In this document: positions 1 to 38,750 of the stretch, piece by piece
Layout: each line of letters begins with the position of its first letter
Position numbering within the stretch: position 1 is the first letter of the stretch
Assembly: GCA_001931875.2 (NCBI GenBank)
Contig: MSJH02000786.1
Location: forward strand, 50,652 to 114,651
Length of the DNA stretch: 64,000 nucleotides
Direction of reading: 5' to 3'
DNA from: Byssochlamys sp. IMV 00236
Taxonomy: Eukaryota; Ascomycota; Eurotiomycetes; Eurotiales; Thermoascaceae
Made by a program: the position numbers and the translations under genes
The notes under the pieces: generated by a model
The model's database searches: none
Told to the model about the DNA's origin: nothing
The model's input: only the letters and a program-made list of their open reading frames with translations

Positions 1-3000
1 TCCTTTGGAAAGCTCAGGCCAGCCGTCTCTGATATGCTCAAGGCGCTTTACTTTCAACCCAAGCAGTTTTCGATATAAAGCAATTGGAAAGTTGACAGGG
101 AGAGTCAAACCATTGTAGATAGCAAGAGACATAAGAAGACCCAATAGTTGGAATTTGTACAGAGGCTCCAGTGAGCAAGGCTGAAACCACGAGATGCGCG
201 TCCGATTATCCATGGTGAACATACCGTACGCTGGGTCGAGCGCCTGCGCCATAACAACCCTGAAGAATTCCTGTTGCACACCACCATGATCCACACCTTC
301 TTCTCCCTCGTCCATTCCCATCTGGACCTTTAGTGGTCTTAAGAGCTCGCGCTTTTCACGTCGCCACAGTTGGTTCAGGGCATCAGTGAGAACATTATCT
401 CGTCGAACCACGAGAACAAGATAAGTGGACATAGATGTTCTCAGTCTCGCCAACAGGCCCACATCATCATAGATCGGTATTTGCCCGAATGCGGTCTGGG
501 TAATATGTCGAGTTGCGGTCATTGCTGCCTCGTAAGATTTGGACATTGTGGCATAATTGAGAGCTCGGAAATAGATCACCAGCGCTTGCGGTGGGAACAG
601 GAACGAGTACGACAGAATGTGCATGGTCTTATTGTTCGCCTGAGTACCGAGCCACTCCACGGGCATCTCCATCGGGTCCAGTCGTTCAGATAGAAACGCG
701 GTGTGGAAGTCATCCGCAAGAAGGCCCAGTCGCTCACGATCTTTATACATGGATGCCAGAATCTGCACGGCGCCGCCAGCAGCACTGGACTTGGACACTT
801 CAGCCTTCCCATCCCATTCTTTGAGGAAGAGCATTCGCAGCCATTCAACGATGACGGAGGCAGCGCTGAGAGACGGGGCAGGATGCGAAATAGCATCAGA
901 CTTACCCACAGTCCTGGCTAGCGCGGTATGATGCTCTCGTAAAATCTCCAGCATGATATCGACGGCACTGTTCTTGCGTAGCTTGGGAGAATCATGGCCA
1001 TACGTCTGGCGAGCCTTCGAGATCTCGTAGAAAGCCAGCCGTGCCGTGAGGGCACGCACTAGCCGACTGAGGAGCCTGAGCGCAAGTTCATGCTCGAGTC
1101 TATCCGTAACATTTACCAACAAGGCACGACTTGCTGGAGAGAGCCTCTGAATCTCCGCATCAGGCAGAACAGTCCCAGCAGCACGCATGTGGACTATGTC
1201 CCGCCAAGTCTGCGGATCCAGTTCGGGAAGCGAGCTCACCAATGCAAAAAGCGCGACACTTACTACGTAAGCAGCTTCAGCGTCAGACATATGATCTTCA
1301 CTTGACGAGGACAGTGACCCGACTGGGATGACTGGCGGGGTGCCGTTATTTGTTGAACTGGAGCTAATTTCCGATTGTCGCCGACTCCTAGAAGGAGTCG
1401 AAAGGTCCTTCGGAGGCGCAAAGACGTTCTCCAGCGCAGTCCAGAGACTATGAAGAGCAATATCCCAGGGACAGATGCGAAATAGCTGGCGGAATGTGAG
1501 CTCAAGCTGCTCGATATCCAGGCGCGTTTTCAAAATCTCATCTTCTTTCTTCAAAGAATCCGCTTCTCTTTTCCGAAAGGATCGGAGGATTTGCTTCGGG
1601 TTACTCAAATTATAGAAGACACTTTGCGCAACAAACGAAAAAGCCTCGCGCTGGCCAGGTTTGGCGTATTTCCAATCGACTTCGTCTAAATTGCCACTTG
1701 CTTCCATTGCACTAACTTCCAGTTGCCAGCTCTCAGCGTCATCCTCGTCACTCACAACCATCTGGCTGAGGCCCTGCACGATTTCCTTAGAGAGATGATC
1801 GACCGTCTGCACCGAAAGTAAGGTATCGCGTTGCTCGGGGCTACGTCGCACCTTAGCTTGGGGATCCTCTCCTGCCCGAGAGGCCGTAGCCAGGTCATCG
1901 TCCAGGTGGAGGTCTCGCGCTCTGACCCTGCGCCTGGGGGAGTCTTTCAACAGTTTTGAACCGTCCCATGATACACGTCTGTTGGCCTTTTTCTTCCCCT
2001 CCATATTCGAATTTGCGCCATCCGGATTCGCACCCCTATGTTTCTGAGAACGATGCCGCAACGCCGGTGGAGAGGGTAGTCCAATGGTTTCCTTTGTACT
2101 GGAGGGAGTATTCACCGACAGTTTCTTTGATTGTAGATCACGACGACTCTTATCGTCTGCAGTTGACCGCGCGGTTTGACGCCAATGTTCAACATCGTTA
2201 AACGAGAGTCTCTTGACCGGTTGTCCCGGTAGTTTCACCTCGACTGCAGTTGGTTGGGCGCTCGTCGACCGCGACGATGAGCGATGTATACCATTCCTAG
2301 CCATGCCAGTTGTAGAGACACTTTTTGGCTCACCAGAAACAGAACGCTCAATCCCATGCTGTCGTGCACTCCCTCTGCCACTTGGCGTTTCCGATTTTCC
2401 TAGGTCCCTGTTGCGTGGCTGCCGCGTGGTTCTCACCGAATCAACCGGATCGACCACTTCAACGGTGCTGGGAGAGCGTCGTAGCGGAAGCCATTCGACC
2501 ATTCGCACTGAGATTGTGTCGAAGAGATTTTGTGTGAAAGACTTTGGATCCTTCAGCCTCTGCGCCCCTAAACCATCACCCTCCGACGCATATTGGTGTT
2601 GCCTCTGTTCTTCTGACGGACGAGCTGCCATCTCTCCGCCTTCTCCATCTGCCCTCTCTTTTGTCTCAACGTTGCGATTCTCTGTAGAGGTGATGTCTAT
2701 ATGCGATCGTGGCGGCTCATACCCGACATCCTTCGAATCACTGCAACTCAGATCAGGATGTCCAGTCGCGGCCTGATCGGTCGATAGTTGAGGGTTACTC
2801 CGCCTTTTTGAACGACGCGGACTCTCCGCTGGTGGGAAGTCGGATGGCAGACGCGGTGGGTTACGACAAAGGCCACTTTCTGCATTGTCCAAGCTTGCCA
2901 AGTAACAGGCCAGCGTGCGTGCGCTTAATTCGGTATACCGTCGAAAGGGGCCCTCCGTCGCTCTTTTTCTATAACTAAGACACGTAGGGGTCATGCAGTT

Positions 3001-31657: not shown

Positions 31658-32957
31658 TTAGAACTGGAAGACAGCAGCCAGGAGGACACCGAAAGCCATG
31701 GTGACGGCGGGCAGCTGGAGGCTCTGGCCAGCACCAGTGAACGCGGGAGCGGCGGGAGAAGGAGAAGGAGAGGATGAAGAAGCAGGAGAAGCAAAGGGGG
31801 ATGGCTTGATGTAGCTACCAGTGGCAGCGGGAGCCTTGGGGCCACCGGGGATGATAGCACTGCCCATGGGGTAGGGGGCGGTAGCGAAGGTCGAGGGACC
31901 GGCGACAGACGAAACACCGACGGACGAAGGACCGGCAGGCGAGGCAGTGACAGACAAAGCACCGGCAGGCGAGGCAGTGACAGACGAAGCACCGGCAGGC
32001 GAAGCAGGGACAGACGGTGCAGGAGTGAACGAGGCACCGGCAGCAGTAGAAGAACCGCTCAATGGGCAGTCGTAAATGGTGTTCTTGAGAGTGTCGGTGA
32101 CAGATCCGCCAGCGACGGTCTGCGCAGGGGCAGAGGGTGCTGAAGTAGTGCTGGAGCCAGAGGACTGCTTGCACTTAGCCTCACCCAGAGCAGCAATGCA
32201 GGCATTGAGAGGGACATCGACCAGACCGCCGTTGCCGCTAGCCTTCTGCTGGCACTCGGCCTCACCCAGGACAGCAGCGCAGACGTTGACAGGAAGGCTG
32301 ATCAAGCTGCCGGAGCCAGAGCCGCCGGCGCTGGCGGTCTGCTTGCACTTGGCCTCACCCAGAGCAGCAACGCAGGCGTTCAGAGGGACATCAACCAAGC
32401 CGCCACTGGTAGTAGCCTTCTGCTTACATTCGGCCTCACCGAGGATGCCTGCGCAGGCGTTGACGGGAACGCTGACCAGGCTGCCGGAGCTTGAAGAAGT
32501 AGTCTTCTGCTGGCACTTGGCCTCTCCCAGAACGCCCAGGCAGGCGTTGAGAGGGATGTCGATCAGACCGCCGTTGTCAGTGGTCCTCTGCTTGCACTCG
32601 ACGTCACCGAGAACAGCAAGGCAGACGTTGAGGGGAACACTGATCAAGCTGCCAGAGCCTCCGGAGGTGGATGACTGCTTGCACTTGGTCTCACCCAGAG
32701 CAGCAACACAGGTGTTGAGGGGAACGGAGATGAGGCCGTTGGAAGCAGTCTTTTGCTGGCAAGCGGCGTCACCCAGGATACCGGCGCAGAGGTCGACAGG
32801 GACCGAGATCAGACTGTCGGTAGTGGGGAGCAGCTAGATTATGGATATCAGCTTCTGATCCATTACAATCGAAGTCATATGGTTCTGTTCATACCGAAGC
32901 GGTGGCAGATCCAGCAACTGCCAAGCCGGCTGCAACAATAGAAGTAGAGGTTCTCAT
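31658..32957 (-). CDS. Secreted, GPI-anchored-type protein with eight Cys-containing repeats
   Basis: Two exons, 32895-32957 (signal peptide MRTSTSIVAAGLAVAGSATA) and 31658-32833, give 412 residues. The mature part has eight repeats of about 20-22 conserved residues plus a Ser/Gly linker. They follow L-I/V-S/D-V-P-L/V-N-x-C-x-x-x-L-G-E-x-x-C-K/Q-Q, for example LISVPLNVCLAVLGDVECKQ and LVDVPLNACVAALGEAKCKQ. Each repeat has two cysteines. Repeats alternate in type and linker, as four dimers. A Ser/Pro/Thr region with repeated ASPAGASSVT-like units follows. The C-terminus, SLQLPAVTMAFGVLLAAVFQF, is a typical GPI-attachment hydrophobic tail. It is therefore expected at the plasma membrane or cell wall. 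The family has no function known to me. The opposite strand has a 253-codon shadow frame caused by the repeats. Confidence 0.85.
31700..32833 (-). repeat. Tandem coding repeats of the GPI-type protein
   Basis: Eight units of roughly 100-130 bases fill about 32110-32830. Shorter Ser/Pro-coding repeats (GGCGAGGCAGTGACAGACGA-like on the plus strand) lie at about 31920-32020. The alternation of linker types suggests growth by duplication of a two-unit block. Confidence 0.75.
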
Positions 32958-38593: not shown

Positions 38594-38600
38594 GACAGGA

Positions 38601-38611
38601 TGACCGAGTGG
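38601..38611 (+). promoter_or_regulatory. Pol III A box of the tRNA
   Basis: TGACCGAGTGG matches the A-box consensus TRGYNNARNNG and lies at the usual place over the D arm. Confidence 0.8.
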
Positions 38612-38628
38612 TTAAGGTGCAGGCCTGC

Positions 38629-38683
38629 GTAAGTAGCCTTGATAACACACCATAACCCGATTTCCAACTAACAACTCCAATAG
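38629..38683 (+). other. Spliceosomal-type intron inside the tRNA-Ser anticodon
   Basis: The 55-nt insertion starts with a consensus donor GTAAGT (38629-38634). It carries AACTAAC with the branch motif CTAAC at 38668-38672, preceded by TTTCC, and ends in AATAG (38679-38683). Length, donor, branch-to-acceptor distance (about 12 nt) and acceptor all match the Pol II introns of neighbouring genes, such as the one at 52473-52527. It sits between tRNA positions 35 and 36, not at the canonical 37/38. No shift of the boundaries gives the same GCT loop, because the flanking bases differ. Confidence 0.85.
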
Positions 38684-38707
38684 TAAGCCTGTGGGTTCGC
38701 CCGCCTG

Positions 38708-38718
38708 GGTTCGAATCC
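38708..38718 (+). promoter_or_regulatory. Pol III B box of the tRNA
   Basis: GGTTCGAATCC is an exact B-box consensus over the T arm. The insertion widens the A-to-B spacing to about 96 bases between boxes, still within the range TFIIIC tolerates. Confidence 0.88.
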
Positions 38719-38734
38719 CAGTTCTGTCGACATC

Positions 38735-38750
38735 TTTTTTTTTCTTTTTT
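38735..38750 (+). terminator. Pol III terminator T-run
   Basis: Nine T residues (38735-38743), a C, then six T residues, beginning five bases after the tRNA discriminator position. This is a strong Pol III stop signal. Confidence 0.85.

Follow-up and report, generated by a model that had tools for sequence, protein, structure and literature searches.

How does a serine tRNA gene whose anticodon is split by 55 nt give rise to a tRNA that reads serine codons? The question is raised by a locus in the window analysed here, a stretch of 64,000 nt from contig MSJH02000786.1 of an assembly of 47.4 Mb in 840 contigs. Introns of eukaryotic nuclear tRNAs are regarded as the task of the tRNA endonuclease and ligase. 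The features described below lead us to a different reading, to which we give a probability of about 85 %: that the insert is a spliceosomal (U2-type GT-AG) intron in a Pol III tRNA gene, and that decoding of AGC and AGU would depend on its splicing.

Anatomy of the interrupted tRNA-Ser(GCT) gene

The gene occupies window positions 38594-38729 and has a type II tRNA-Ser body in which a 55 nt insert separates tRNA positions 35 and 36, following an exon of 35 nt and preceding one of 46 nt. This layout was described in an earlier note made from the letters of the window, and its coordinates prove exact: Rfam RF00005 covers the full interval at 43.1 bits, and is the sole match in the window above the gathering score. 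The features, all on the forward strand, are these.

38594-38628, + strand: tRNA-Ser exon 1 (positions 1-35), with the acceptor 5' strand, D-arm, 5' anticodon stem and C32 T33 G34 C35 (from the sequence and Rfam)
38601-38617, + strand: stretch TGACCGAGTGGTTAAGG containing the Pol III A box (from the sequence, with the A box at positions 8-19 as given in a passage of PMC3978253)
38629-38683, + strand: putative spliceosomal-type intron of 55 nt between tRNA positions 35 and 36, GTAAGT...CCAACTAACAACTCCAATAG (from the sequence, and from two homologous introns elsewhere in the genome)
38629-38634, + strand: predicted 5' splice site GTAAGT, identical in all three Ser(GCT) copies
38668-38672, + strand: branch-point motif CTAAC, identical in all three copies, its second A followed by 12 nt to the insert end
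38681-38683, + strand: predicted 3' splice site TAG, identical in all three copies
38684-38729, + strand: tRNA-Ser exon 2, with T36 A37 A38, 3' anticodon stem, variable arm, T-arm, acceptor 3' strand and G73 (from the sequence and Rfam)
38708-38718, + strand: Pol III B box GGTTCGAATCC, uninterrupted (from the sequence)
38735-38743, + strand: T9 run, a likely Pol III terminator (from the sequence)

The insert thus starts with GTAAGT, carries CTAAC 12 nt from its end and finishes in TAG, just as the note had read it, and its exact removal has the effect claimed there: excision in silico yields an 81 nt tRNA with the loop CTGCTAA and the anticodon GCT, which ARAGORN calls as Ser(gct). With the insert retained, a comparison of the kind that the note had proposed, the call becomes Thr(agt); in bacterial mode the same program found no tRNA over the whole window. 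The 35/36 junction is unique, because the bases following the donor exon and the acceptor differ and any shift alters the product.

The grammar GTRNGT...CTAAC-6..14-AG fits 2 of the 127,890 55-mers of the window (both strands), the insert itself fitting, which amounts to 1.6e-5 per fixed place; with lengths of 45-65 nt allowed, it fits 11 stretches. We regard the retention of the signals across three copies of the gene, in which the remainder of the insert varies, as a stronger argument than this chance count.

Copies of the gene and the organisms in the assembly

Judged by proteins encoded in the window, the host is Paecilomyces (Thermoascaceae, Eurotiales): an OPT transporter has 100 % identity over 88 % of the query to a P. 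variotii protein, a sedolisin peptidase 100 % identity over 99 % of the query to another entry from P. variotii, and a Zn2Cys6 factor 99 % identity to a metagenome protein and 95 % to a P. lecythidis protein. The window also holds, at 31658-32833 on the - strand, an open frame of 391 aa with cysteine-containing repeats (LISVPVNVC...EAECKQK), an Ala/Ser/Pro-rich end and a DNA period of about 170 bp, for which there is no Pfam match.

The assembly seems to include a second organism as well. Small, mostly low-GC contigs (among them C25, C111, C172, C203, C218, C219, C276, C383, C389 and C596) carry a differing tRNA set, with for example other Asn, Lys(CTT) and Ser(GCT) genes, and near-duplicate pairs occur among the small contigs, such as C276 and C383, both of 38,045 bp. 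For loci of at least 1,700 bp GC content is no clean separator: a Ser(AGA) locus of the second type, on C121, has a GC of 0.478, and two loci with a host-type tRNA-Leu (L024 and L042) have 0.30-0.31. The Ser(AGA) genes read, on C121, C238, C429 and C466 (loci GC 0.34-0.48), are all of a single type, with two further matches on C197 and C584; if this type is not the host's, then the host gene would be interrupted, divergent or unassembled.

A 301 bp query from the window, used in a BLAST-type DNA search that skips common words, matched itself and two Ser(GCT) paralogues only, both on contig C812. The note had taken the gene singly, but the genome holds three Ser(GCT) copies, and there are similar inserts in further tRNA species. 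When the three copies are aligned, none of the 81 exon columns is variable, 14 of the 58 intron columns are (gaps counted), and the 14 signal columns show no variation at all. The introns measure 55, 58 and 55 nt; the flanks diverge past about 10 nt, and a T-run follows each copy. At the sequence level A box, B box and T-run are present in the window gene and in both others. Fisher tests give 1.7e-6 for exon against intron and 0.014 for signal against the rest, values that serve as a guide only, as the copies are related and the events not independent. A block AGCCTT after the donor, outside the splice signals, is likewise kept in all three introns. The pattern of variation is what selection on the splice signals would leave.

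The census was taken with pattern searches, which overlook genes whose D-loop or B box is off-pattern. One Ser(GCT) pattern gave five matches, namely the three interrupted genes, an intact gene on C111 and a place on C676 that by eye is no tRNA; a second gave one match, the intact gene on C111. The surroundings of that gene (1,819 bp) have a GC of 0.345 and group by composition with the low-GC loci. The low GC, the trinucleotide composition and the diverged tRNA sequence point, though not firmly, to C111 coming from the second organism. Neither pattern search found an uninterrupted Ser(GCT) gene on host-like contigs, and because the three host genes are all interrupted, decoding of AGC and AGU would need splicing; in two host genes, 14 of 44 and 15 of 46 serine codons are AGY. 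Many intact Ser(GCT) copies, named in the earlier note as evidence that would tell against its reading, are not what the two pattern searches turned up, there being one intact match and that on a contig foreign-looking by composition.

Inserts in other serine and histidine tRNA genes

Three further genes, two for Ser(CGA) on C806 and one for Ser(TGA) on C478, have a 37/38 intron (25, 23 and 15 nt) together with a second insert of 55-60 nt. The second insert lies in the T-stem, where it separates positions 51 and 52 next to the B box but not within it, with the signals GTAAGT or GTATGT, CTAAC, and CAG or AAG; when both inserts are taken out, 81 nt Ser tRNAs result. A pattern combining donor and B box matched these three genes and nothing else (3/3), with 0 matches in the reversed control. 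Because they keep the 37/38 intron beside the T-stem insert, both splicing systems would be required for these genes. On C577 lies a decayed Ser(CGA)-like copy (L013, L135), which has T-arm substitutions and small deletions but no T-stem insert, and judging by this copy an insert-free Ser(CGA) form may once have existed.

On C613, three His(GTG) genes (L117, L118 and L119) carry an insert of 53-54 nt in the D-loop, of the form GTGAGT...CTAAC...ATTG, whose removal leaves a 71 nt His tRNA. It lies inside the A box (positions 8-19, according to the same passage of PMC3978253), and its first bases partly imitate the 3' part of that box. In the Ser genes, neither the A box nor the B box is interrupted by an insert. 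The acceptor is the non-AG TTG in all three copies, a genuine anomaly that calls for caution on the His family. This insert is probably a spliceosomal-type intron too, and since the His genes were found through CTAAC, that motif lends it no independent support.

Taken together, the nine inserts all begin with a donor that fits GTRWGT or comes close to it (GTAAGT in five, GTATGT in one and GTGAGT in three), and all contain RCTAAC, the branch A being followed by 11-14 nt. CTAAC was not a requirement in the searches that found the Ser inserts. An AG acceptor ends all six Ser inserts (TAG three times, CAG twice and AAG once) and none of the three His inserts, which all end in ATTG, so that six of nine end in AG overall. 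The fungal intron consensus is given as GTRWGT, RCTRAY and 6-36 nt from branch to acceptor in section 3.2 of PMC5832005, in connection with U3 introns, and the tRNA inserts fit it as quoted there, His acceptors excepted. Nine introns in two protein genes of the window, located with the help of the matching proteins of P. variotii, measure 49-87 nt, and six of them have CTRAY; the tRNA inserts (53-60 nt) fall within their size range. For an introner- or transposon-like origin, related copies at unrelated sites and target-site duplications would be expected; the 301 bp query matched only itself and its two paralogues, and the short repeats at the insert ends (GTAAG, CAG and GTG) are in part the splice signals.

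Once spliced in silico, all nine genes are called by ARAGORN with the expected anticodon. Left unspliced, the three Ser(GCT) genes are called as Thr(agt) and the three His genes as Asn or Lys, and the two Ser(CGA) genes receive no call. A serine model (R1) spans all six unspliced Ser genes, having been built from five Ser tRNAs that include the spliced exons of three of them. The anatomy of these genes, their number within the reach of the patterns, the conservation of the signals and the correct tRNAs obtained on removal can be regarded as established.

A search requiring CTAAC gave 19 matches against 20 in the reversed control; as there is no enrichment, the argument rests on the genes and not on the match count. 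The 19 consist of the nine interrupted genes, seven Glu(CTC) genes with CTAAC in the D-loop and no insert, and three others. A further pattern search gave 17 matches against 10 in the reversed control, made up of the three His genes, ordinary tRNAs and others; its matches on C475 and C807 were inspected and neither is an interrupted tRNA. A B-box census counted 371 matches including overlapping ones, with content known among the first 100 listed and hence for part of the assembly, and a tRNA family search scored 63 of 1741 candidates. Two B-box matches (L034 and L051) have tRNA-like surroundings, no ARAGORN call and serine-model scores of 10.3 and 11.9 bits, and are possible tRNA relics. Viral contigs scanned for relatives of the interrupted tRNA gave 0 matches. 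A single match on a genome contig of a Paludibacteraceae MAG (L142) was taken as chance, the 180 nt read there showing no tRNA.

Removal of the inserts: alternatives and precedents

The reading put forward in the earlier note, a spliceosomal-type intron in a nuclear tRNA gene, is supported by these observations and withstood those attempts to refute it that the sequences allowed. Under it, Pol III would transcribe Ser(GCT) from the intact A and B boxes and the T9 run would end the transcript; GUAAGU would be bound by U1, and CUAAC, as branch point, by U2; and the spliceosome would ligate C35 to U36, giving the loop CUGCUAA with the anticodon GCU. That Pol III transcribes the gene, that U1 and U2 recognise the signals, that the spliceosome excises the insert and the tRNA folds afterwards, and that this is essential, is what we infer from the sequences. 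Pol III transcripts are an unusual substrate for the spliceosome, which counts against this reading.

Three alternatives have to be weighed. In Cyanidioschyzon merolae and the Guillardia nucleomorph, tRNA introns occur outside 37/38, sometimes several per gene, and many of the Guillardia introns have no defined bulge-helix-bulge (PMC3978253, in the portion consulted). Ectopic introns cut by a relaxed tRNA endonuclease, as has been proposed for these tRNAs, could therefore be imagined here too, and the His insert, which has no AG, is a point in favour of this view. In that portion of PMC3978253 such introns are discussed as bulge-helix-bulge or undefined and spliceosomal signals are not mentioned. 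A relaxed endonuclease would leave unexplained why a spliceosomal donor and RCTAAC stand at near-constant spacing in all nine inserts. A strict bulge-helix-bulge forms only 0-2 of 4 central pairs in the five sequences (three junction kinds) compared; the test is weak and does not discriminate, for the two Ser(CGA) genes and Ser(TGA) score 2, 0 and 3 at their own 37/38 introns. On balance we think a relaxed endonuclease improbable.

Improbable too is a normal 37/38 intron, removed by the tRNA splicing endonuclease, with ends that resemble spliceosomal ones fortuitously. The 37/38 register of Ser(GCT) does place a G at intron position -3 opposite C32, an endonuclease hallmark that Ser(CGA) and Ser(TGA) show at their 37/38 introns as well. 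The excerpted Table 1 of PMC6108506 also includes an Aspergillus niger Ser(GCT) gene with a predicted intron of 23 nt. Cutting in the 37/38 register would, however, give the loop CUGCGUA with the anticodon GCG on a serine body, and would leave the host without Ser(GCT) among the genes found. GTAAGT, CTAAC and TAG are moreover among the blocks preserved in the three Ser(GCT) copies, and for the inserts in T-stem and D-loop a 37/38 intron is out of the question. The Ser(GCT) insert differs from such introns in its position at 35/36, its greater length and its GT-CTAAC-AG signals, as well as in the wrong anticodon that 37/38 removal would produce.

A third possibility, that the introns sit in pseudogenes derived from redundant tRNA genes, is likewise improbable. 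The decayed copy on C577 demonstrates that tRNA genes do decay in this genome, and C111 has an intact Ser(GCT) gene, but the C111 locus sorts by composition with the low-GC loci, and the three interrupted copies have identical exons despite their diverged introns and flanks, with T-runs after all three. Of the two fates that the earlier note had allowed, removal by the spliceosome or a dead copy, the latter is very unlikely in view of exons identical at 81 of 81 positions in three loci, and the former is the one we favour. None of the three alternatives accounts for all of the cases; a self-splicing intron is ruled out, 55 nt being too short on general knowledge.

Spliceosomal removal of the Ser(GCT) insert can be set in an evolutionary context by comparison with A. 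niger. The entries reproduced from Table 1 of PMC6108506 comprise a Ser(GCT) gene, 105 bp long with a 23 bp intron, an intronless Ser(AGA) gene, 81 bp long, and two for His, one intronless at 71 bp and the other 84 bp long with a 12 bp intron. These are predictions for few genes, most amino acids being represented by two chosen at random, and models with introns of more than 100 nt had been removed; among them the tabulated Ser(GCT) and His genes have no comparable long insert, which would suggest that the long inserts are not common to the whole order Eurotiales. The same entries suggest that in Ser(GCT) a spliceosomal intron took over from a short one. An acceptor G at the position of the anticodon-intron pair would permit a gradual hand-over from 37/38 to spliceosomal removal. 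The fuller account, to which we would give somewhat better than even odds, is that in this Paecilomyces lineage spliceosomal introns entered Pol III tRNA genes repeatedly, at 35/36, at 51/52 and in the D-loop at 14/15, and that the Ser(GCT) insert replaced an ancestral endonuclease intron whose G, once pairing with C32, is now the G of the acceptor AG. The spliceosome would then be needed to read AGY codons, and probably also UCA/UCG and His codons, with Ser(CGA) and Ser(TGA) using two unrelated splicing systems and His a UUG acceptor.

That the earlier note knew of no described tRNA with such an arrangement agrees with our search for reports of spliceosomal introns in nuclear tRNA genes, which located no precedent in a partial coverage of the literature, judged mostly by titles and abstract openings. 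Tani and Ohshima in 1989 and Canzler et al. in 2016 are said to have described spliceosomal introns in fungal U6 snRNA genes, which likewise are short Pol III-transcribed non-coding RNA genes; U6 is itself a spliceosome component, whereas the genes considered here encode several kinds of tRNA, with internal promoters and three insert positions. The U3 snoRNA genes of most Pezizomycotina analysed have spliceosomal introns with the same donor, branch-point and acceptor grammar and the same short branch distance, but belong to another gene class, and their introns average 92 nt (against 53-60 nt) and lie nearly all in one 5' stem-loop (PMC5832005, in the sections consulted). Spliceosomal introns in ascomycete 18S rDNA (Cubero 2000; Bhattacharya 2000; both as mentioned in an extract of PMC11889510) offer a further case of a non-Pol II RNA gene, differing in that the transcript is made by Pol I and is far longer.

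If the inserts are spliced as they look, the spliceosome would handle tRNA precursors made by Pol III, and in this fungus a pair of serine codons could not be read without it. Such genes would then offer a natural system for studying the route of Pol III transcripts to the spliceosome and structured tRNA precursors as its substrate, and also the order of two splicing machines on one RNA and the origin of spliceosomal introns. As the Thr, Asn or Lys and absent calls of ARAGORN illustrate, tRNA annotation misnames or overlooks genes interrupted in this way. Part of the genetic code is probably read, in this Paecilomyces mould, by way of the mRNA-splicing machinery.
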